From Paramacrobiotus metropolitanus (taxonomy: Eukaryota > Tardigrada > Eutardigrada > Parachela > Macrobiotidae), in NCBI RefSeq assembly GCF_019649055.1, contig NW_026570302.1, positions 124,001 through 188,000 of the forward strand: a DNA stretch of 64,000 bases, read 5' to 3'. Under the pieces are notes generated by a model, which was not told the origin of the DNA, did not search any database, and worked only from the letters and a program-made list of their open reading frames with translations. Positions within the stretch are counted from its first letter, which is position 1; each line of letters opens with the position of its first letter. A program made the translations under genes and the position numbers. Below are positions 3,337-33,175 of the stretch, piece after piece.

Positions 3337-6300
3337 ATGGCGTTCACACCCGGCAAGCAAACAATAAGTGTAACTATCAACGGTAAACCGCACCATTTTA
3401 AGTTGGTAAAAGTTTTGGATTCGGAAAAAAAAGTCAAGCTCATCGAAGAAATTGTTGACGGTCAACTGCTGGACGGTGAACCGGTGCGGGATAGGATGAA
3501 ACTGGTGATGAAAGACGTGGAGATAAAGCTGTCCACGGATGCGGCTGCCCGGGCAACAACCCTCCGGACACTGCGAGAATCGTGGAAGCGAATGTGCCGC
3601 GTTCAACACTGTAATGTTCTGCAGTGCATCTCTGCCACTTTGAGCGAACCCGGTTCCCAAGAGATCGTGATGAGCGGCACCCAAATCATGGAGTACAGCG
3701 ATAGTACGTGTTGCATTACACTTTTAATTACTTAATAACTTTGACCTATGGTTCTCTGCTAATTCATTCGATTTAATGTCCTATATCTGCATCTCCTTAG
3801 ACCTTAGCCATTGAAGAAAATTAAATATTCTAGGCTAGTAAACTCACCGGAACTCGTAAATCCTAGTACTACGCACGCTAGAGAAGCAATACATCACAGA
3901 ATTGTTGTAAGTTAGTACGGGCATGAATTTCAGTGGGCGATTTAAAGCAGCACATGCAGCACCAAAGGAAGACGACACCCATCACCATGGACCAAGTGAA
4001 AAACTACAGCTACCAAATACTACAAGGCATTGAATACCTACACTCAGCGTTCAACCTGGTCCACGGTGATCTCAAGCCGCAGAACATTATCGTCTTTCCT
4101 GATCCCAGTCGGCCGTACGGTACGGTTTTAAAGATCATCGACCTGGATGACCATGCTGCGCTGGACTATTCGCGTACAAAAACGCTGCAGACTGGAGCGA
4201 AGGTCGTCAGTGGTACGCTATGCTACATGTCGCCGGAGCTGCTGCAGATCGGCAGCGGAGGGAAGAATAAAGTGGGTCGACTGACGGATATCTGGAGTTT
4301 TGGTTGCATTATCCTGGTACTGCTTAGCGGTGAACAACAGCTCAAATTTGCGTACTGTGCCGACCGCATTTTCACGGATCCTCTCGACCCGGCATTGCAA
4401 TGTACGGCATTTCAGACTGTCGTCGATCCGGAGGACTTTCGACGTAGAGGCGGAATGACCATGCCGTTGCTGCCAGGGAGTCTTACGGATAAGAACTGTC
4501 GTGATTTTTTAAAGCAGTGCCTGGCAAGCGATCCGCAGAAGCGTAGTAGGACCGCCATATTGCATACGCATTCGTGGCTGATTCATGAACATGAACGTTC
4601 CCTTACTGCAAGAGGTACATGTATTTATCTACATTCACCTAAAAAAATAAAACTAAGAAAAGTCACAATCAATTAGAAATTTCTCCATTAGGCTAGCATG
4701 ATATCGCTGTTAGTAGAGTTTGGCTGCTGTAGTTCGATAATAACAATAGTTAAAGTACTGGTACCTGAAAATACTGCTACAGAGTTCGACAATATTGAAT
4801 GAAAAGCACTTCAGGCAGTCACTACTGCTGAGTCAATTTTACATACGGATCTGTATTAAAACTAGAAAGAAATAGAAAAAACTGAAAACGCCATTCGATT
4901 CAGCATACTTAAAGAGAATGATTTCATATAAAATCTGTATTTTTGCGCTGTTGCAATATACCTACAGTACTTATCATGTTTCGACGAAATACAGAATCTG
5001 ATGTTATACTTCGCTTTGTCTCATATTCCGGTCACTTTAATTTTACGGTTTCATATTCCGGTCACCAGATAGCCAAATTTCCTGACAAAACGAAGCTCAC
5101 ACAGATCATTAGTTTTCATAAAAACGACTTCTCTCATTAAATTTGAACGTAAACACCAATAAATTTTTATGAGAAACAAAACAAATAGCAGAAACTCTGA
5201 ATCGGGTGAGACGCAAAACACTGGACCTTTCCGTCATACAAATGCAATTTCAAATTTTAATGGACTCCCGAAAAGTGTGAGGGTGGGGTGGGCTTGCTCA
5301 GCGAACTGCACATTTGACGGGTGGCTAAAGGCAGTGCGATCAGCAGCTATTCATCTACATAGTACGCCAAATGTGCGGTCGCACCAGTGACTGGTGACCG
5401 GAATATGAAACCGTACACTCAAAGTGACCGGAATATGAGACAAAATGAAGTACAGTACTAAAAACTGTTCATTCGAAATCAAAATTATTAAAGTGGCCGT
5501 GGACCACAAGAAACGCGGAGGCGAAGCCGAAGCTGTTTCTTGTACATTATATAATAATTACACAGAATTATAGCAGGTCTTTATTTATATTGTGCATGGA
5601 TTTTTCAAACAGGACTGACGCATACCAGCAAGTTCTTCCTTCATCGCGAGCCAAGCTGGCCGGGAACCGTTGTTGACTGTCCACCAAAAGAAAAGCACTG
5701 GGTTCGTGGACTACACAATGGTGGTACTATTCTGACGCACTCTTTACGTGCACTATGTCAGTACCCGGTTTACGAGGACGCCAGGCAAACCCTGCTCGCC
5801 GAACTGCGAAGTCAACCCTTTAGTGAGAAGCAAAAAGAAATGTGTGTCAACCATTTGGCGGCTGTCATTACTACCCTGAAACCCATCGAGCAAGAGACAG
5901 CAACACAAATAAAAGAATTTTTTGCAAAAAACAAGGAAGGTTGTGCGACGATACGGCCACTGTTTCCCGTGTATTTGTCGCTTCCCGTGTTGTGCGATTT
6001 CCTCAATAATTTCTCCGCGGGACAGTATGGTGCATTGATCGACCCGAGCTCGGTTACCCAGTACGCGTACAGCGTTAAGTCAAACCTGGAGTGGAAGGAC
6101 ATAGAGAGTGCTCTGGATAAGAAGCATCCCGTTATTTGCCAGATCGCTCAGAACGAGATCGATCAAGACAGTACCCTGGTGACCGGTGCCAGAATGTTGT
6201 CACTGGGTCATCTCTGTCCGCACAAGCTCATTGAGCTGGACTTTGTCATTCTGACAGGATACTCGAAGACAATGAGTGGAGATACGTATGCCTCGTACAC

Positions 6301-6445
6301 CAAAGCGGAAGGCGATACCATGGAGATGAATGTAAAGGATTTTGAGGCGATCTGGAACTGGCGTGCGAGTGATTCGTTGCTGCAACAGTATCTGACGCTG
6401 GAGGATGTCCGACCTGCGTCCGCTCTCTTTCGATCAGTAATCTAA
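3337..6445 (+). CDS. Kinase plus peptidase-like fusion protein, group 2, intact copy 1
   Basis: Three exons: 3337-3703, 3934-4614 and 5613-6445, joined through phase-1 GT-AG introns, give a 626-aa open product. Residues about 1-350 form a divergent kinase lobe pair: LVMKDVEI (Lys59), VHGDLKPQN (Asp168, Asn173), IIDLDD (DFG-position Asp192), YMSPELL and LTDIWSFG. No glycine-rich loop is evident. The catalytic Asp, Asn and metal-binding Asp are present, so activity is possible. Residues about 350-626 resemble a papain-like/C39 peptidase fold: HPVICQI, a DFVILTGYSK strand pair, then GDTMEMNVKDFEAIWNW. The catalytic Cys and His positions of the group 1 homologues (VCGVRF, VHGYVG) read NGG and LTGY here, so this domain is probably a pseudoenzyme. 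The start was chosen at ATG 3337 because the 8266 paralogue is colinear from its equivalent Met. No signal peptide or TM. Intron 2 holds a MITE. Kinase call firm; C-terminal fold call is inference. Confidence 0.82.
5007..5452. mobile_element. MITE-like element with 62-bp terminal inverted repeats
   Basis: The left arm (5007-5068) and right arm (5391-5452) are near-perfect reverse complements. Each carries CATATTCCGGTCAC twice. The arms end in TACTTC / GAAGTA, so a TA target duplication with CTTC-starting ends is possible (mariner/Tc-like), but this is not proven. It lies in intron 2 of the kinase fusion gene. There is no transposase inside; the small ORFs there (for example 5169-5390) match nothing I know. 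The paralogue's intron at 9617-9977 lacks it, so it inserted after the two genes split. Confidence 0.75.
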
Positions 6446-6989
6446 AGGTTAAAGGCTAAAGACCACATTATGCTCGTCTTCTGCGCTCAGTTTTTTGGAT
6501 AACATTTCGTTTATTTTATTAATTTATCTATAGTCAGCGGATGTATTTGTACATGCGATTATCACTAGGATAGCTTGTTTACAACTTTACATACAACATA
6601 CAAGTACAAATTGTACATGGTATTATTTTCGAGGTATGTGCCTTCATACGTCATGGTATTACATGGCATTTCATAATAACGGTGTCATTGCGTTTTTGGA
6701 TACTGTGGTAGATAGTACTAGATACTTTATTCTACACTTTTTGGAACAGCATGCTAGAAAAGCGGAGCGTGAACGGCTCTAGCGCTCAGTGGGTTCACTA
6801 TTTTGTGGCTTTTACAGTTTTACTGAAGCGTTTTACAACTGCGTTAGTTCGTATTCAGCAGTACAGGTACGTCCAGGTACTCTGTACTTAAAGGGAGGTC
6901 GAAGCGATTGCATCCAGTAATTTAAACAATACGTACCGTAACACGGCCAGCATATTTTGTAAACATGAATTGTACCATGGTGATGGAAG
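6446..6989. other. Intergenic, no gene seen
   Basis: 3' flank of the first fusion gene. AT-rich; the 6446-6520 part is similar to the 3' flank of the paralogue at 10811-10870. No polyadenylation site could be placed with confidence. Confidence 0.5.
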
Positions 6990-7142
6990 CATCTCTTGGA
7001 GGATCCTCTGTACAGCGCCGTCGTGTCGACGCCGAGAAATTTGCTTGACCTTCTGTATAGTGAAAACGCGGCTATCTATAGATAGCGTCCCCGACTGTGG
7101 GACCGTAATGAGTGCGGCAGTGCCAGAGGTTTCCGAGGCCAT
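6990..7142 (-). pseudogene. Relic of exon 1 of a group 1 kinase fusion gene
   Basis: Minus-strand reading from ATG 7142 gives MASETSG, then TLSIDSRVFTIQKVKQ. This aligns with the starts of the group 1 genes at 1521 and 20490 (TLTIDGHDFTMQ and TLTRNGRVFRMQHVKQ). Shortly after, RILQEML matches the YVLKEIL lysine strand, but the segment between (GNRGKVWLVKGDN in the 1521 gene) is missing. The ORF continues into unrelated sequence and no exon 2 or 3 follows. Its promoter region (7319-7600) is preserved and homologous to 1692-1950. Clear fragment of a dead gene lying between two plus-strand paralogues. Confidence 0.7.
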
Positions 7143-7318
7143 AGCTTTCGCTGTGGTCAACTGTAAGGAGTGTGTTCAGATGTTTTGCTAATAGTGTGCA
7201 AAATGTTGGGTGGCAAGATTAGAATCAAGCGTCGACTAAGTTGAGGAAAGCCACAAAAACGACACTTTTAATTGGCGAACTGTAAGTAGCGATAAAAGGG
7301 GTAAGCATAATGGACTTG

Positions 7319-7335
7319 CCGCTTTTATTTATAGC
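7319..7335 (-). promoter_or_regulatory. Orphan TATA-like promoter of relic exon
   Basis: The minus strand reads TATAAATAAAAGCGG, 177 bp upstream of the relic ATG, the same spacing as in the gene at 1521. DNA to 7600 aligns with 1707-1950. It could still start transcripts; nothing in the sequence decides this. Confidence 0.4.
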
Positions 7336-8073
7336 TCTATTTATTTGGCGGGGAAATTGTACTTCAAAATCTGCCGTCGTTAGTTCAAAAACTCAGTGCC
7401 ATATAAATGACTAATTCGTGCGCACAACAATGCAGTGTCGTTGGCTGCGAATACTTATCGGTTCGCGGTGACTAACCTCAGGTTTGTGGATAACCGGTGT
7501 GCTTTGATAAAGATAGGCGAGTGTGCCACGATAGCGGGTTCGGCTACTCAATATAAAATAATCAATCAGTCACTCAAAAATCAACACTGAATCGTAGATC
7601 GAATTATACAAGAATATATTTCCAGTTGCTGTTATCTTGTTATTGAAACAGTTTTCCTTTGATCTGCCAACGAGTGACAATAAACCTTTACCATAAGCTA
7701 TTGGGTCAAATCATCAGCCAATAACGAAAAAAATACCGAGATTTTAATTTGTACAATCGGGACTGGTGTCACTGTATCACCACCAGTACCTATATCATAT
7801 AATTATGCAATGCTGCGGTGCTTCCCTTTCTTGGCAAAAAATGAGCACCAGGGCAGTTACAGTATAAAGTCGATGCAGTTACAAAACTTACTCAATTGTA
7901 CGGCGTGACTGCGCTAAATTACTGTACATGCTTTCATCAGCAATACGAAATTTTAAGCGTTATTCAGTTAAGTGTGCTTTTCCATTGGGTTGGTTTGAAA
8001 TTCGGTCACGATATCTTTAAATTAACGATATCAGCCTAATCCGCCTGCAGAAGGCTGGTCATATAATCTCGGT

Positions 8074-8120
8074 CTGACCTAGACAAAATATTGACAAAAG
8101 CATCGACCAGCGATAACGTG
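8074..8120 (+). promoter_or_regulatory. Conserved upstream element, second copy
   Basis: CTGACCT, AAAATATTGACA, AAGCATCGACC and GCGATAACGTG in the same order and spacing as at 3149-3195. The TATA box TATAAAT follows at 8177-8183. Confidence 0.5.
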
Positions 8121-8265
8121 GTCCTTGTAAACCTTCGTCGTTTCTTAGAATGAATGATCTACCGTAGACAATTTGCTATAAATGTAACACCAAGCGCGAG
8201 TGTTCCAATCACACTTTTCCTCACAGATCTGCACATTCTGGTTGACTTTATGTCGCAGCGGTGAA

Positions 8266-10810
8266 ATGGCTTTCAACGCCGGATATCTTAGCGTACCTAT
8301 CAACGGCCAGCCGAGCCACTTCAAGTTTGTCAGATTTTTGGATTTTGTTAAAAATGTCAGTCTGATTGAAGAAATTATCGACGATCAATCGTTGGGCGGA
8401 GAACCGGCGAGGGAAGGAAGGAAACTGGTGGTAAAGAAAGTGGATATTCAGCTGTCGGGAGATGCCGCTGCCCGCTCGAAAGCCATCAAAACGCTCAGAG
8501 AATCCTGGAAGCGAATGTGCCGCATGCAGCACAGCAATGTTCTGGAGTGCATCTCCGCCACACTGGAGGAACCGGGTTTCTTTGAGACCATGATAAGAGG
8601 CACTCAGATCATGGAATACAGCGATAGTATGTAATCGTCGTAATATATCACTAGTCAATAATTGTATCATAGCTTATGTATTATCGAGCCTTGCATTTTT
8701 CTTCATGATGATGATTTAAAAACTAATAATTATTGGAACCTGTGATTCTTTTTGCCAAAACACTTACGACCGAAACACCATTGGTTCCCTGAAAATACTT
8801 CGCCTTCACCTTTTATTCTCTGGGAATACTTAAATCGTGTTCTTTTTTTGCTATTTAAAAATCGTGAACATTAGTTTTTTAAACCCATTTTTTATCCGTG
8901 ACCTTTTGTTCATTCGAGTTCATGTTTTTCAGAGGGCGATCTAAAGCAGCACTTGGAATGGCAAAAAAAGACTGCGCTCTTCAGCATGGACCAGGTAAAA
9001 AATTACAGTAATCAGATACTGCAGGGACTCGAATACCTGCATTCCGCGTTCAACCTGATCCACGGCGATCTCAAGCCGCAGAAAATTATCGTCTTCCCGG
9101 ATCCCAGTCGGCCGTACGGTACGGTCCTGAAGATCACGGCCCTGGAAGATCATGCCGTGCTGGATGATTCGCGGACTAATACGCTGCAGAGCAGGACAAA
9201 TATTGGCTGCGGTACATTGCGCTACATGTCACCGGAGCTGCTGCAGATTGGTAGCGGCCGGGAGGATAATGTGGGCCAGCTGACGGATATCTGGAGTTTT
9301 GGCTGTATTATTTTGGTCCTGTTGAGCGGTGAGCAGTCGTTCCAGTATGCCTACTGTGCCGACCGCAATTTCACGGACCCTCTCGACCCGGCACTGCAGC
9401 GTACGGCGTTTGTGACCATCGATGATCCGGAGAAGGACTTTCGATACAGGAGCGGGGCGGCCATGCCGTTGCTGCCAGTAAACCTTGCGGATAAGGACTG
9501 TCGGGATTTTTTGAAACACTGCCTGGCCAGTGATCCACAGAAGCGCAGCCGGACAGCCATGCTGCACGCACATCCGTGGTTGATTCATGAACATGAAAAT
9601 TACCTCATGGGAAGAGGTATGGTTCGAAAACTATTTCTGGCAGTAATGCATAGCTAGCCGCCGCAGAATCAGACCATCAGATTTGCTCAGAAAACGTGGT
9701 GTTCGCCACATGCGTACGCTTTATACGATGCATAAAATCGCTTGGTGGTATCTGTAGAAAGATATCAGTGTTCTGCATCGTATAAGTGGTAGTGAATTAC
9801 TACCACATCTATGATTATCGGCAACTGCACATGCTGAACTCACATGAACACCTTAATTTTGTAGAGTACGATACTGTTTAATATACATTCACAGCCGGGA
9901 ACTGAAAATTCTCTGCAATGTAATGCGTTTATTGATGTTAGACCTTTTATCGTAATTTGCACGCATTTTTCGAACAGGCTTAACGGACACCTGCAAAATT
10001 TTCCTCCAACGTGAGCCAAGCTGGCCGGAAGCCATGGATGAATGTCCTCCCAAAGAACAAAACTGGGTTCGTGGACTACACAGTGGCGGTGCCATTCTGA
10101 CGCATTCGCTACGTGCACTATGCCAGTACCCGGTTTACGAGGACGCCAGGCAAACCCTGCTCGACGAATTGCGAAGTCAACCGTTTAGTGAGAAACAAAA
10201 AGAAATGTGTGTCAACCATTTGGCAGCTATCATCGTTACCTTAAAACCCGTCGAACAAGAGACAGCCAGACAAATTATGGGCTTTCTTGCCAAAAATAAG
10301 GAGGGTTGTGCGACAATACGGCCACTGTTTCCGGTGTATCTGTCTCTTCCCGTGTTGTGCAATTTCCTCAATAACTTCTCTGCGGGACTGTATGGCGCAT
10401 TGATTGACCCGAACTCGGTTACTCAGTACTCGTACAGCGTCAAGTCAAATCTGGAGTGGAAGGACTTGGAGAGCGCTCTGGACAAGATGCATCCTGTTAT
10501 CTGCCAGATCGCTGACAACGAGATCGGTCAAGACAGAACACTGGTGAGCGTTGCCAGAATGCTGTCACTGGATCATCTCTGCCCGCTCAAGCTCATTGAG
10601 CTGGACTTCGTTGTTCTGACTGGCTACTCGAAGACAATGAGTGGAGATACGTATGTCTCGTACACCAAGGTGGAAGGCGATACCATGGAGATGAATGTAA
10701 AGGATTTTGAGGCGGTCTGGAACTGGCATGCGAGTGATCCGTTGCTAAGACAGTATCTGACGCTGGAGGATGTCCGACCTGCATCCGCAATCTTTCGATC
10801 AGTTATTTAA
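8266..10810 (+). CDS. Kinase plus peptidase-like fusion protein, group 2, intact copy 2 (predicted pseudokinase)
   Basis: Exons 8266-8626, 8933-9616 and 9978-10810 have the same phase-1 structure as the gene at 3337 and give 625 aa. The two proteins are close tandem paralogues along their whole length. Lys57 (LVVKKVD) and the HGD Asp166 are present. The catalytic-loop Asn is Lys171 (HGDLKPQK), and the DFG-position Asp is Ala190 (ITALED where the paralogue reads IIDLDD). Both metal-binding residues are therefore gone, predicting a pseudokinase. YMSPELL and LTDIWSFG remain. Exon 3 encodes the C39-like region (HPVICQI, DFVVLTGYSK, VEGDTMEMNVKDFEAVWNW) with Cys and His positions replaced, as in the first copy. 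Open frame, conserved splice sites and a conserved promoter argue for a maintained gene. An earlier in-frame ATG at 8250 exists in another frame only; Met 8266 matches the paralogue. Confidence 0.82.
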
Positions 10811-11694: not shown

Positions 11695-13802
11695 CTACAG
11701 CTTCGCTCGACGAGACAAGAAGCTTCGCTTGACAACGCCAGCACACTCGTATATCTTTCTAAACCGTTCATCCTCCAGCTCCCAATCCCACAAATCCATG
11801 AAGCTGGCGTATGACCGCTCCCGTACCATTCCGTCACTGGATGTACAGTAGACGATGCGGTTGTCCGGCGTGTTGCCGACATATCCATGCACGATATTGG
11901 TATGCAGCGCCGGTACAGCATCCGGAAACCCCTAGCTGCTAGCCAGTTGTTGCAGGTGCGTCTGCACCGGAAACTGGCCGCTCTGATACATCACCAACAC
12001 CGGTCGCCCACCATCCAGTTCCCGCTGAATATCCATCCAATCAGCGTGCGTCTGCACAACGTACTCGTATTCGTCTTCGAAGGTGTTCAACCAGCGCGCT
12101 AGATCCGACAGCGGTGCACCCAGTGGGGGTAATCCGGCACTGATAACCCTGATCATACCTTCATCCTGCAGTACCATATTCGCCATGCTGCATACGAACG
12201 GGTCCTGTGTGAATTCCGGAATGATGTCCAGCAACAAGTCGCGGTATTTTGGTTCTAATGGCTGTCCGGGGTTGATGGCTTTGGGGCACTGTTGGACCAG
12301 TTCATCAGCGTCGGCCAAATTGAACCTAGGTGCCTCAAAGTGCGCCAGGAATCTGACGCCGCAGACGGCGCTACAACTCCATGAAAAAACTCCCGAAGCT
12401 TCGTCGGCGGCGTAACGTGGCAGGAGGTTGTGTGATTTCAGTTTTATCAGCACCGGGCGCCGCATAACTAGAATGTTGACAGGAAATGAGTTTATTAATA
12501 TTTCAAAGGAGTCTGTTATATATGCACATCAGATATATTATTGTGAATGCATGCAATATTGTGATGTTTTTCTTTGTACGGGCCTAATGTTAATATAAAT
12601 AACTGTATACCTCCATCAATGCGTTTCTCTATCGGATCAGACAGGATCCACGGGTAGCTCAACAGTTCTTGAAATCGTGGTCTCTGTAGAGCGCTTTCAG
12701 CCAAAAGGTCCTCCATCATGTCTGCCAGCGGTTTTGGTACATAAATCGGAATCCTGGGGCGTCCCCCTTTATGGAAAACCTCCACTAGTTCCTCTCGAAG
12801 GGCGTCCAGTTCCGCATCTGAGTTTTCTCCGCTGTCCTTTGGGATTTCCAGTCTTTCGCCATCCTTCTTGACCAGCCACAAACTGTTCTCGGCGACCAAA
12901 AATAACAGCACACAACCCAAGCTCCAGATATCACCGGCTTCGCCGAGAAGCTTCTGACTGAGAATACCGGCAGTGACTTCGGCGTTATCGTTGGTGAGCC
13001 ATCGCTGTGAAGCGCTGTCTGCTTCTTTCACAAGATATGATTTCTCAGGGCGAAGGCGCATGAAGGTGTCCAGAAGGCTAGTAGTGTCGGCAGCTACTAC
13101 GTCACTGGACGCTTCCACCATATCCAAACCCCCGATCTTTGCTTGGAGTTCACCATGTGCGTCAATGTGTAGGAAGGTATTTTTCGGTTGAAGATGCCCG
13201 TGAATAATTCTCTGAGCGTGCAGATACTGTACACGATGCCGTTGATTAGATTACCACTTAGGCGATGCAATGTCGGCCAATCCGGTCGGCTTGACCGATA
13301 AAACTCGGCCAAACTTCCATCTAAATGCCGAAAAACATCATTTCATGTATCTGAGAAACTTGCTGTATTTTAAGGAGCGGGTTAATAATACTTTCAGATA
13401 ATCAGATAATGCTGCTGTCTTTTAAATAATACTGCCATTTGCCAAAAATGATATTATGCGCAATAACGTGCAGTGCAAATAAATACCAGCATATTTAAAC
13501 TTACGTTGACACCATTCCATTAAAACGATGACCTTTGACTCGCCGGTTAATTCTTTATTCACCATGCCACAATGCATGTATTTCAGGACATTATCATGGT
13601 ACAGACTTTTCAGAAGATCCAGATTGTCCTGCAGCGCACGAAACTGCCAGTCCGATATGGCGCGGCTATTCCATGTTTTCAAGGCGAAGCATTGTGGCGC
13701 TGCATCGTCTAATTGTCCTTCAATGAGACTTACCGAATTAGTTGGCGATTCGTGTAGAATTTTCAGTTGACGCATGTTCTCATACAGCGAACTCGATGGC
13801 AT
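11695..13802 (-). pseudogene. Kinase plus peptidase-like fusion, group 1, disrupted copy
   Basis: Minus-strand exons 13802-13505, 13320-12611 and 12467-11695, with the family's phase-1 splice sites. Exon 1 (ATG 13802) is open and carries FALKTW (VAIK Lys) and VLMEWCQ. Exon 2 is out of phase by one base. The frame breaks near 13228, after GIVY, and resumes as YLHAQRIIHGHLQPKN; the catalytic Asp is His and the DFG region reads GGLDM, so the kinase was already inactive. Exon 3 is in one frame for 257 codons with a single in-frame TAG at 11932-11934. It encodes the C39-like domain with Cys (AVCGVRFLAHF) and His (IVHGYVGNTPDN) both present, then SYASFMDLWDWELED. It may be a gene kept for its peptidase-like half and lost recently, or one carrying sequencing errors. 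Two independent lesions favour a true pseudogene. Confidence 0.75.
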
Positions 13803-16030: not shown

Positions 16031-16202
16031 CTATTCCTGCTTTTTGCGGCGATACACCGTACTGCCTTGGTACACCTGTGCGCACTGAAACACGCGCTTT
16101 ATTCTCCAGTCATCCGGTGTCCAATCCCTAATTTCCAAAAAATGCGCATACGAATGCTCGTCTACCAATCCGGTACTGCTAGGAGCCACGCAAATGCAGC
16201 CA
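16031..16202 (-). pseudogene. Orphan last exon of a group 1 fusion gene
   Basis: After a good acceptor (TTTTATTTTGCAG, minus strand) the frame reads CICVAPSSTGLVDEHSYAHF, then EIRDWTPDDWRIKRVFQCA, to a TAG at 16033-16031. This aligns with the C-terminal end of the gene at 11695 (IVYCTSSDGMVRERSYASF and DWELEDERFRKIYECA). No kinase exons stand upstream. The next minus-strand coding exon belongs to an unrelated membrane protein (16277-17214), whose phase at plausible donors would allow splicing only at GTACGA near 16315. Most simply a relic; capture as an alternative 3' exon cannot be excluded. Confidence 0.6.
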
Positions 16203-20489: not shown

Positions 20490-23240
20490 ATGGCTCCGGA
20501 AGCAGCCAGCACAGCTTCACCCAGTACGTCGGTGCAAATGTGAACGCTGACCAGAAATGGCCGGGTTTTCCGCATGCAGCACGTCAAGCAGTTTGATGTT
20601 GGCAATCGCGGTACAGTGTGGCTCGTCAAAGGGGATAATGTGGATAACGAGACAGATACTTCAAAAAACACTCGCTACGTGCTCAAAGAGATCCCTTTCC
20701 AAGGAGACGACGTGGCCAAGAAGTAACTGAAGGACAACTGGGATCTCCTGAAAAGTATTAACCATCCCAATGTCATACGTTATCTCCATGTCGAAATGCT
20801 ACCTCAAACGCCCATAAAACCGGCGCATGTGGTTGTTTTGTTGGAGTGGTGTCGCTGTAAGTGCGTATGTACACTGTACAATATACACCGTAAAAATGCA
20901 CATTGTACAACTATTTCCAACTTGTATTTCGATGAAGTTCTTTTTAGTCGACATTTTCATGCACAAAATATATCTCTCATAACCAATTAACTATACACGA
21001 TCAGAAACTATTGTAATGACGATCATTCAATTTTTTGTAACTTTCTCAGGTATGTACAATGTAGGACTAAAATTTAATGGTCGTATAGCCCCATACCCAG
21101 CATTCTGGACGCAAACGGTGCAGTGCACTTGTACGAAACGGATATTAAATTTTTGAACTCAGTCGTACAGTGCACTGCGCTGCATTCGTACTGAATGTGA
21201 AGAGGTTGGGTATGCGATCATTTTGTCCTAAGCTGTAAAATAAGCACATTAAGCTAATCGCAAAAAAATATCGAAAAGCATAAAATTTTGTTTGAACGCG
21301 CACACAGTTTTTGGATTAAAAAACGATAAATATTGCAGTTTAAAGTCTGGCGAACTTGTTACATGAAAGCAGACCCGAAGGATCAACGTTTCACAAACTG
21401 ACTGTCGACATCCTCCGCGGTACGCTTATTCACGCTAAACGGATTTTCCACGGAGACATAAAATCCGAAAACATCTTCATCGATGTGGACGCCGATGGGG
21501 AACTGCAGGCCAAAATCGGTGACCTCGATGATTTCATCCGCGTAGCCGAGAGTACCACCAATAAGACCAACCCAAACGCGGCACAACTGGTAGGCACCGT
21601 TCGCTATTTGTCCCCGGAGCGGCTGCGAGGCGACACTAATGTGCCGGTGAGCGTAAAGAGAAACGCCAATATTAGGAGTGTGGGCTGCACTTTCCTGGAT
21701 TTAGTGACATACCAGTGCGTGTACTTCGTTAAACCCAAAGGAGAACATCTGAAGGTGAAAAAGTACTGCAAGAACGATAGCGAGACTGGGGATGCCTTGA
21801 AGAAGTTGGCTGAATTGCGGCATTTTCTGGAGAACGGCGGGCGGCCGTGGGTACCACCTAGTCTGCAGCCGGAATTACGGGCATTTATTGCACGCTGTCT
21901 GGCAGAAAATCGAGCACAGCGACCAACCGCAAAAGAGTTACTAGACGACCCATGGATCCACTGCGATCCAGCGATTCGATATATAGATGGAGGTGAGCCG
22001 TTTTTCAACTAAGCTGTGGTAAAGAAACTCCTGTGTACGTTCGGGCGGATTGAGCTAGTCCTACAACGGCTACAAGCAGCCTAATATAGTTAAAAATGCT
22101 TTATTTCACCTGAGGTACAACATAAATTTGTAATAACATTATAACAGACAACATAAAACATTTTTTACAACATCAGACTTAAAAATTCTTTGTCGTTTTA
22201 ATAATCCGATAAAAATCGAGACGCAGCCACTTGTTTGTCTGTTTCTCGATGGCCCGTATCATCTTGTGGTTTAAGGCGGTATTTCGTTTTCGCCCCATCT
22301 TTTTATTTAAAGCGCAAAGTGGTTTTGCGTCCATACAAAGCGTACACACGTGAGAGCCAGTGTGACGCATGTGGTCCAAAAACCGTTTTTCTGTGTGAAA
22401 AGTAGAAGAACGGTTTTACCGCTGGAAGTAAATGGGCGCCGCCTTTGTAGAAAATAGTACCCTAAATTGAAGAACGGTTATGGCTATAAGAAGACAACTG
22501 AGTATCGGCCGTTAGCATAAATAAAATTCCGATTCCATAGTGCCTTACGAGCCGCATATCATCCGACTGAAACACTCCAATCTACTACCCCGTCAAGTGG
22601 ACGGGGAGTACGATATGAAGAACGTGGAATGGAATCTGCCATGGAGTAACAATGCCCACTGCGCCATCCGCTTTCTAGCGCACTTCGGAGCGCCCCATTT
22701 TCGGATAGCCGATGCGGAAGAGCTGGTTTACGCGTGTCCGCGCGCCCTGACGCCGGGCCAGCCGATTGAGAAGAAATATCGCGATTTAATTCTGGAGGGT
22801 CTGGAGACGAGTGAACTACTGGTCGAACAGCCTCTCCTCGCCGCTATGGTCCGCCACATGCTCAACGACGACCGAATGCCGGCCAAGTTCACGGCCCGTC
22901 TGCAGCCAGTGGGTGCGCCGTTCCCCGATATGGGGGCCTGAATGAACACGATGGAAGTGGAGCACGAGTACGCCGTCAAGGTGGCCGCCACCTGGGCGGA
23001 TATCAAACCGAAATGGACGCTGGCCGACCGGTGATGGTGATGATGTACGCGGGGTCCATCGGGATGCGCATGCCCGTCTTGGATACCTTTCGAGGCATCA
23101 ACGGCGTCCCGGACCATATTCCAACGTTTTCGGTCACAATTATTATTAACGGGTACTATATATAGTGACACGGATGCCAATCGCATACTGATTTGTACAG
23201 GTTCGTCGCCCAGCCTGTCGAAGATGTTGTGATTAATGTG
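20490..23240 (+). pseudogene. Kinase plus peptidase-like fusion, group 1, heavily disrupted
   Basis: Exon 1 (20490-20856), exon 2 (21339-21992) and exon 3 (from 22541) keep family splice sites and phases. In-frame stops are TGA 20541, TAA 20724, TAA 21341 and TGA 22939, and a frameshift near 23030 separates LADR from RPVMVMMYAGS. Kinase motifs remain readable: YVLKEI, IFHGDIKSENIFID, KIGDLDD and LSPERL, but NANIRSVG replaces DIWSxG. The C39-like exon keeps Cys (AHCAIRFLAHFGAPHF), while the His position reads IIINGYY. Fragments of the last strand (ANRILICTGSS) are legible to about 23240. Several stops affect Trp or Lys codons by single substitutions, as expected for neutral decay. It is the best full-length outgroup for the group 1 gene at 236-1521. 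Confidence 0.85.
22179..22420 (-). other. C2H2-finger-like fragment
   Basis: A minus-strand ORF contains EKRFLDHMRHTGSHVCTLC, which reads like the end of one C2H2 finger, its HTG linker and the C..C of the next. It then loses the pattern in a Lys/Arg-rich stretch. It lies antisense in intron 2 of the pseudogene at 20490. It could be a retained zinc-finger gene fragment or chance. Confidence 0.25.
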
Positions 23241-31644: not shown

Positions 31645-33175
31645 AGATCAGCGACCTGCCGCACTGGCCGCCTCCCAGACGAAACCCATGGTCAACGGGA
31701 ACGAAGTCAGAGGTACGCGGCGCTATATGTCGCCGGAGTTGATCCAGATTGGCAGCGGTTTCAAGGACAAAGTGGGCCGTTTGACGGATATCTGGAGTTT
31801 CGGCTGTACAGTGTTAACCCTGCTCAGTGGTCAGCAGCCGTTTCATTATGCTTACCATGAGCAGCGCAGTTTTTCGGATCCGTTTGATGCAGCACTGCGA
31901 ACGAAGGTTTACAAAACCGTGACAGACCCAGAGAACGATTATCGCAACATTGCAATATTATAGCCTACGTCCTACCCTCCTTTAATAATTCGGCGGTAAC
32001 TAACGGGTAAAACCGCCAGCTAGGAAATTCACTCCGACAACGTTGTCCGGATGCGGAACGCCGAATGCGCACTCCGACTAAACCGTCCGGTCAATACTCT
32101 AGACCCCACCATTTCACAACAACGAAGTGTTCAGAGTACTGGGTAGACAAAATTTATGGTAGGCGCTCTTTGAGATTGATAAGCGGTATATTCGTCCTGA
32201 CGGTTTAGTCGGTTACATGTAGCGCTTTTACACCGTACCATGAAATGCTCCTTCGATGGGGACTGCCAATCCAGCCGGCGACCCTTGCGGCATTTCCAGC
32301 TGATATTTCGAAGAGGGACGCTCGAGTGCATAACTAAATGACGGCGACCATGAGCTTTTCCTATATAACCTAAAATTCCCTCAACACGCTCAACTTTTTT
32401 CAGTTTGCAGATGCATGCAGCCCAACCCAGTCGTATCTTGTTTCCCTATCAGTAATGATGTGCGATGGACTGACCATAAACGTTAAAACGCCGTGGTCAT
32501 TGTTGGATGTTTTCTCCTAGGCGTAAGATGTTGCAGTAATAATTGTTGTCCGTTACGCAAGTACGAAGAACTGTCGATGTGCAAATACATCTCATGTACT
32601 AGCACGCACCAGTAACCGGCAATAATGACCCCGGCAAAAATATCTCCACTGGCAGTTTTTGGTGCCTCCTAAGGCACCATCGCAAAATAGCAGCCTTTGC
32701 TGATATTCTACGATATCAAGGAGCTACATGATAAAACCTCGGTAACTTGCTTCCTCTTCTGCCCATTAGAAGGTGAAGACTCATAGCTGCACTTCTATAC
32801 CCGTGGTTAGTACTGGCTTTGTAAAATATTTTTCAAAATAGCGTTTTATCTCTAAAAATCGCGCGTTCAGAATAACTGATAAAAGTGTTTTTATCCAGTA
32901 TTCGGTAAATCTGCGGCCTCTCCTATCCCTATCAAGTAGCTTAGCAGCCCTAACGCTCTCTTCACTTCCCACTCTTTATTTCGATTCATAATTCTTCCCA
33001 ATCTTTGCAGTCCACTCGCGCAACTTAAGTGACCCCGGGTATGAACATGGAGATGGATGTGAAGGATTTCGAGGCAGTGTGGAATTGGCAAGCCAGTGAT
33101 ACGTTGTTGCGGCAATATTTGATGCTGGAGAACGTCCGACCGGCGTCCGCTCTTTTTCGGCCAGCTATTGGATAA
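31645..33175 (+). pseudogene. Broken group 2 kinase plus peptidase-like gene
   Basis: Two pieces remain. 31645-31963 starts just after the DFG position and reads RGTRRYMSPELIQIGSG, DKVGRLTDIWSFGC, LSGQQPFHYAY, TVTDPENDYRN and then stops. 33041-33175 carries the C-terminal end: MEMDVKDFEAVWNWQASDTL and LENVRPASALFRPAIG, with a family-like stop. The N-lobe, catalytic loop and most of the C39-like domain are missing, and the 1.1 kb between is unrelated. The protein motifs are well preserved, so decay is probably recent and driven by a large deletion or insertion. It abuts the right end of the duplicated block (31625), so the duplication junction may have cut it. Confidence 0.8.

Follow-up and report, generated by a model that had tools for sequence, protein, structure and literature searches.

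A tardigrade kinase family with a putative papain-like domain encoded in a single third exon

We analyzed 64,000 nucleotides from the tardigrade Paramacrobiotus metropolitanus (contig NW_026570302.1, here C82, positions 124001 to 188000; 42.1% GC), which we call the window. It contains two intact three-exon genes, A and B, that each join a protein kinase to a second domain. Comparisons within the genome (169,799,020 bases in 533 contigs were searched) and with known protein families point to a small, rapidly duplicating family of non-RD, probably mitogen-activated protein kinase kinase kinase (MAP3K)-like kinases. Their C-terminal domain, contained in the single exon 3, would be a mostly degenerate papain-like domain that serves in regulation or docking. 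We hold this account with moderate confidence.

Kinase genes with a third exon

Gene A encodes 626 amino acids and gene B encodes 625, both on the forward strand with open frames, and all four introns are GT..AG. Gene A exon 1 (3337-3703) encodes the kinase N-lobe, with the VAIK Lys present and the Gly-rich loop absent. Exon 2 (3934-4614) encodes the remaining kinase, with HGD at 4062-4070 and DLD replacing DFG at 4140-4148, and exon 3 (5613-6445) encodes the putative papain-like (C39_2-like) domain and the stop. Gene B has the kinase N-lobe in exon 1 (8266-8626), the C-lobe in exon 2 (8933-9616), and the putative papain-like domain and stop in exon 3 (9978-10810). The kinase matched PF00069 at 120.6 bits in A and 116.3 bits in B (curated cut-off 31.7). 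A preliminary description of this DNA had placed two intact genes here, with the kinase in exons 1 and 2 and the second domain wholly inside exon 3, and our analysis agrees. The two genes are 65%, 75%, and 85% identical in exons 1, 2, and 3.

The same description dealt with copies in the window; the family is not local but is spread across the genome. With exon 3 of three members as queries, protein searches found at least 12 uninterrupted full-length exon 3 copies in three diverged groups (I to III, with A and B in group I), plus two interrupted copies and relics. These counts are lower bounds because the searches score best candidates only. Copies other than A and B are named here by contig (C12, C13, and so on; positions are given below). 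Kinase exon 2 lay upstream on the same strand in 14/14 full-length exon 3 copies, from three groups and six contigs. Wherever exon 2 is intact (10 of 10 models), a GT/AG intron in phase 1 separates exons 2 and 3, and both introns are of this kind in the eight models that include exon 1. This is a consistency result and not a blind test, because splice sites were picked to keep the frame running, close to the conserved ends of exons. C32a and C13a were outside the phase count, and by eye C13a exon 1 does not end in phase 1. The kinase came first and the exon 3 domain last in A, B, and six other complete models. This layout makes exon 3 appear to belong to the kinase gene, as its third exon.

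Residue statements below come from family alignments of 10 rows for the kinase and 13 rows for exon 3. The HxD Asp and its Lys were present in all 10 kinases and the VAIK Lys in 8/8 with exon 1. The catalytic Asn and the DFG Asp were present in nine of the 10. Gene B has lost both, with Lys replacing the catalytic Asn (HGDLKPQK) and Ala replacing the DFG Asp (9139-9141), and is likely to encode a pseudokinase; A keeps the Lys, the HxD Asp, the Asn, and the DFG Asp. The closest Protein Data Bank (PDB) match of the A kinase was MAP3K5 (ASK1; 5.3e-13). Unlike MAP3K5, all 10 members lack the HRD Arg (HGD, HMD, HTD, or HCD instead), the family has DLD or DVD in place of DFG, and A, B, and C13b have no Gly-rich loop. 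On these residues and matches, the members are non-RD kinases (HxD without the Arg) and are probably MAP3K-like.

Fold and active-site positions of the exon 3 domain

A papain-like, Peptidase_C39_2-like fold for exon 3 is supported by profile comparisons. Pfam scans covered 24,736 models, and the best matches of single members were to PF13529 (Peptidase_C39_2; expect value [E] 4.1e-4), PF09778 (Guanylate_cyc_2; 0.014, at a WDCGVNC segment), and PF14399 (BtrH_N; 0.091). These three belong to one Pfam clan. Passages of a review group the C39_2, BtrH, and GUCD1 families closely (PMC10318531). In one scan of 10 members at an E of ≤1, PF13529 was matched by three and PF09778 by two, and weak unrelated matches ranged from 0.029 to 0.13. 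When eight copies from groups II and III were merged into a consensus, it matched PF13529 at 1.6e-5; the second-ranked family was CBF, which is unrelated (0.006). This consensus scored 26 bits and passed the curated PF13529 cut-off of 24, which the best natural member (21.4 bits) did not. Consensuses of all copies and of group III gave 0.0067 and 0.012. Full-length A and B had no PF13529 match at an E of ≤1. Genome-wide, PF13529 matched one place at that threshold, the family member C13c (0.072, below the cut-off), and no place was found for PF09778.

We also compared family profiles with bacterial PF13529 proteins by using hhalign. The yardstick was 28 of 30 bacterial loci; L126 and L133 were omitted because few others resembled them. 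All 13 copies gave 80.7% as query (score 45.1) and 93.0% as target (55.5), whereas unrelated profiles gave 0.1 to 0.2%. Shuffles of the all-copy profile peaked at 23.5 and 22.3, and 0/100 each way reached the observed score. Groups II and III with C82M gave 37.4% as query and 72.1% as target. Over six comparisons, including group I, with 100 column shuffles each, none of 600 reached the observed scores (largest, 26.3), and a separate 60 shuffles of the group II and III profile reached at most 26.6. The match places gene A 'IESALDKKHPVICQI ... LDFVILTGY ... KDFEAIW' opposite bacterial 'VMQLVSDQIPVIVFQ ... WHYAVVTGF ... SLFERTW', with the catalytic His falling on Asp. It spans approximately 63 columns around the strand-His-strand region, with the Cys helix outside it. 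The global mode gave no useful alignment.

As in the C39_2, BtrH, and GUCD1 families, the PVI strand, a His strand ending in G[YF], the next strand, and an 'F..xW' helix align, and group II has a Cys-helix segment such as WDCGVNC. Unlike in C39_2, the stretch from the Cys helix to the PVI strand is longer (approximately 80 residues by eye), the Cys is lost in A and B, the His is lost in most members, and a kinase is attached. Passages of the review describe C39_2 proteins as single-domain peptidases (PMC10318531).

The preliminary description had based its papain/C39-like fold on a C...HGY layout. The fold finds support in the matched families, but the catalytic residues are missing from A and B. 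The Cys position is Asn in A (5717-5719), Ser in B (10082-10084), and Cys in the remaining 11 of 13 aligned copies. The His position is Asp in both (6239-6241 in A and 10604-10606 in B), so the peptidase C...H layout is not in these genes. Nor is the HGY strand, which belongs to the minus-strand group; A has IELDFVILTGY and B has IELDFVVLTGY. The peptidase His aligns with a residue 7 positions ahead of the HGY motif's Tyr and 5 ahead of its His. Of the 13 copies, four have Asp at the His position, two have Cys, two have Gly, one has Tyr, and four have His (C85a, C72a, C13c, and C82M). Both Cys and His are present in 3/12 uninterrupted copies (C85a, C72a, and C13c) and in the interrupted C82M. 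All 13 rows share a different His, located 7 residues past the Cys position. The catalytic Asp position is uninformative, because Asp is also missing there from many bacterial proteins of the yardstick (HSG or HTG by eye).

Selection, proposed role, and competing explanations

We compared eight pairs of copies, of which A-B and C85a-C72a were close enough in all three exons; in the other six, synonymous sites were at or near saturation in most exons. The ratio of nonsynonymous to synonymous substitution rates (dN/dS) for exons 1, 2, and 3 was 0.24, 0.15, and 0.18 for A-B and 0.15, 0.19, and 0.18 for C85a-C72a, with bootstrap upper bounds of ≤0.40 for every exon of both pairs. Intron 2 was 46 to 48% identical in both pairs, and intron 1 was 50% (A-B) and 72% (C85a-C72a) identical. 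As read from these ratios, purifying selection is acting on all three exons of both pairs. The synonymous rate (dS) of exon 3 was at most half that of exons 1 and 2 (0.42 versus 0.91 for A-B, and 0.08 versus approximately 0.40 for C85a-C72a), and this was reversed in 0/1,000 bootstraps for either pair. In C85a-C72a, exon 3 is nearly identical and 280 aligned bases of the 3' flank share 99.6% identity, whereas exons 1 and 2 differ by approximately 12%. This low divergence at the 3' end fits gene conversion across two contigs. Alternatively, the likeness (C85:72152-73300 and C72:19500-20593) may be an assembly effect. The A-B 3' flank is 59% identical over 145 aligned bases and so is not homogenised. 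Therefore, conversion there would concern exon 3 alone.

Exon 3 of A and B is conserved though its catalytic residues are gone, and so it most likely binds something. This suggests that the protease-like domain of these two proteins now senses or steers instead of cutting. In the mechanism that we propose, the domain would no longer cut in most members. It would be a binding or regulatory module that docks a peptide-like ligand, inhibitor, substrate, or partner, or that restrains the kinase. The kinase part would be the output, placed or controlled by exon 3 binding. Gene B, with both sites lost, might partner active paralogues such as A, as their scaffold or decoy. Evolution of the family would proceed by duplication, decay, and, seemingly, partial exon 3 gene conversion.

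Several results weigh against this account. The MAP3K label is weak, with other kinase groups within about one order of magnitude of the MAP3K5 match. In the Pfam scans, unrelated families appeared at an E of 0.006 to 0.1 alongside BtrH_N and Guanylate_cyc_2, and gene A exon 3 alone had no match at an E of ≤1. Group I alone against C39_2 gave 7.7% as query (score 27.8) and 30.6% as target (34.1). When PDB sequences were searched by using family profiles and a consensus, no papain-like protein was found, with chance-level matches only. AlphaFold2 models were poor, both for gene A exon 3 modelled alongside three further stretches of the window (mean predicted local distance difference test score [pLDDT], 35.0; predicted template modelling score [pTM], 0.21) and for C82M exon 3 with two window relics (mean pLDDT, 40.2; pTM, 0.32). 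Finally, Cys in 11/13 copies exceeds what a wholly dead enzyme family would need. An NCBIfam scan of exon 3 found no C39 match and nothing relevant. A Foldseek search with the C82M model found nothing under an E of 1 (top rows were viral main proteases at an E of ≥1.1), and the best VIA-align match was a thioesterase (Z of 3.4). These Foldseek and VIA-align rows count neither for nor against a fold.

Part of this could mean that the domain is not papain-like and that its likeness to C39_2 is a short chance match. That would explain an alignment of some 63 columns without the Cys helix, unusable structure predictions, and the silence of NCBIfam and the PDB searches. However, three families, C39_2, BtrH_N, and Guanylate_cyc_2, were all matched among the 24,736 models, the last at WDCGVNC, and no column shuffle reached the observed hhalign scores. 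We think a chance match decidedly unlikely. The retained Cys might instead belong to bifunctional enzymes: C85a, C72a, and C13c would each link a kinase to a working cysteine peptidase or acyltransferase, with A and B as their inactive offshoots. The Cys-His pairs of these three and of C82M favor such activity, and the Asp position is no argument against it. However, the His is replaced by Asp, Cys, Tyr, or Gly in 9/13 copies, and C85a and C72a are so alike in exon 3 that they are close to one observation. Active enzymes seem to us an unlikely, if serious, alternative.

Two further explanations would remove the link between domain and kinase, or any function. Exon 3 could be a separate gene that merely sits behind a kinase, and C12 does have an in-frame Met near its exon 3 start. 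However, the upstream kinase exon in every full-length copy and the in-phase donor and acceptor sites speak against this, and the exon 3 open frame of A, C13c, and C82L has no Met before the Cys-helix position. We give a separate gene hardly any credence. The family could also be a selfish or neutral expansion, with A and B as dying, functionless copies. Several relics, the loss of both catalytic sites in B, and the exon 2 breaks in C13a and C32a would agree with decay, but dN/dS is low in every exon of both pairs, and we find this improbable. The account of kinases with a mostly degenerate domain for docking or regulation also allows a bolder version. The genes could be tardigrade-specific birth-and-death kinases, with the papain-like domain as bait or sensor for parasite cysteine-protease inhibitors or effectors and inactive copies such as B as decoys. 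This is compatible with the clustering, the relics, the exon 3 homogenisation, and a conserved copy in which both active sites are lost. It is a speculative idea to which we attach a small chance. On the same slender odds, this animal family would have arisen independently as a counterpart of the plant kinases that carry integrated decoy or EDR1-type domains.

Family distribution and related systems

A profile scan of all frames located the other copies in the window. The preliminary description counted at least four relics; four relic loci are indeed present, but one further gene, at the left edge, has no stops and is not a relic. This third gene, C82L of group III, is on the minus strand (236-1471), with stop-free exons 1 (1471-1156) and 2 (886-236). 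Its exon 3 is just beyond the window (approximately C82:123590-122785), and the product has 590 amino acids and no internal stop. C82M, a broken group III copy on the minus strand (11701-13748), has an exon 1 match at 13748-13506, exon 2 matches in two frames at 13318-12612, and exon 3 matches at 12447-11701 with one TAG inside. A minus-strand exon 3 relic at 16037-16180 holds the last 48 or so residues of the domain, and an adjoining kinase match was looked for and not found. On the plus strand, the group III relic C82r1 (20553-23156) has exon 1 in two pieces (20553-20855), exon 2 (21344-21991), and exon 3 in three pieces with a stop and a frame shift (22561-23156). The group I relic C82r2 (31658-33163, plus strand) keeps parts of exon 2 (31658-31939) and exon 3 (33038-33163). 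The window has other duplications, at 29508-30830/46993-48345, 28114-28569/44489-44950, and 45845-46498/46825-47486, which are 85%, 76%, and 95% identical. The duplicated segments, two pairs of which are approximately 16 to 17.5 kb apart, have similar open frames, one immunoglobulin-like and one coiled-coil-like by eye.

Besides A and B, group I includes C13a (C13:337232) and C13b (C13:963989). Group II includes C85a (C85:72152), C72a (C72:19796), C72b (C72:40586), C32a (C32:1178478), C32b (C32:940758), and C12 (C12:1339265). Group III has two uninterrupted copies, C13c (C13:952444) and C82L (C82:122794), and two interrupted ones, C82M (C82:135701) and C13r (C13:331693). Exon 2 itself is broken in C13a (a stop) and C32a (frame broken, 15 stops). 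Exon 1 of C32b and C13c was not found within the flanking stretch examined. Upstream of C13c exon 2, at the expected place of exon 1, are frames that by eye resemble reverse transcriptase/RNase H and integrase of a retroelement (C13:954328-957300).

In a tree of kinase exon 2 (29 rows), groups I, II, and III were each a supported clade (100/99, 99/97, and 100/100), and group II joined three kinases without the domain (93/97). The exon 3 domain as a label on this tree needs three changes, and the fusion may have had a single origin with later losses. Sixteen of 17 comparison kinase loci had no exon 3 match at an E of 0.01 in the stretch examined, and the 17th (L031) is a family relic. A match at L035 (E of 0.049) was set aside as chance, being by eye an exon 1-like kinase stretch. 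We also looked for exon 3 relatives in viral contigs and prokaryote genomes. None of 32 pattern stretches in the former was confirmed, nor any of 14 in the latter, in a search that finds close relatives only. The genome has at least 136 PF00069 matches, many to separate exons and several clustered (C16, C104, C69, C72, and C166). Judged by such matches, there is a large kinase expansion in this genome. A further kinase fusion of this expansion may lie at L025 (C88:37800-42300): the exon of a related kinase continues there as an open frame of 578 residues, whose C-terminal part resembles leucine repeats by eye.

No standard family with a kinase followed by a papain-like domain was known to the preliminary description, a claim that plant EDR1 qualifies. 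EDR1, which negatively regulates a MAP kinase cascade, is from a different papain-like family, and its papain-like part comes before the kinase, the opposite of the kinase-first tardigrade order. Like the tardigrade proteins, EDR1 fuses a papain-like domain to a MAP3K-type kinase: the review describes its domain (PF14381) as papain-like and frequently joined to a kinase (PMC10318531), and another paper calls EDR1 a Raf-like MAPKKK (PMC4022593). Unlike the tardigrade domain, which resembles C39_2 and BtrH, EDR1 is likened there to C71 and C93 peptidases (PMC10318531). Full-length A and B had no PF14381 match at an E of ≤1. Plasmodium SERA5 belongs to another papain branch. Its papain-like domain has Ser at the Cys position, as in gene B, and a reportedly non-enzymatic role; a kinase is fused in gene B, and the passages on SERA5 mention none (PMC4671257). 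Among the best-ranked matches in the open-access PMC literature, we found no description of a kinase with a C39_2-like domain. Among protein clusters found only in tardigrades, 27 kinase and 53 peptidase clusters have been reported (PMC5531438). Therefore, kinases in themselves are unsurprising, whereas the fusion is surprising.

This family is a small example within a large kinase expansion. An animal lineage appears to have built a fusion of kinase and papain-like domain separately from plant EDR1, from another papain-like branch and in another order. The domain seems to have been kept under selection while its active site decayed, and it would be a case, open to testing, of a peptidase fold that has become an accessory domain of a kinase.

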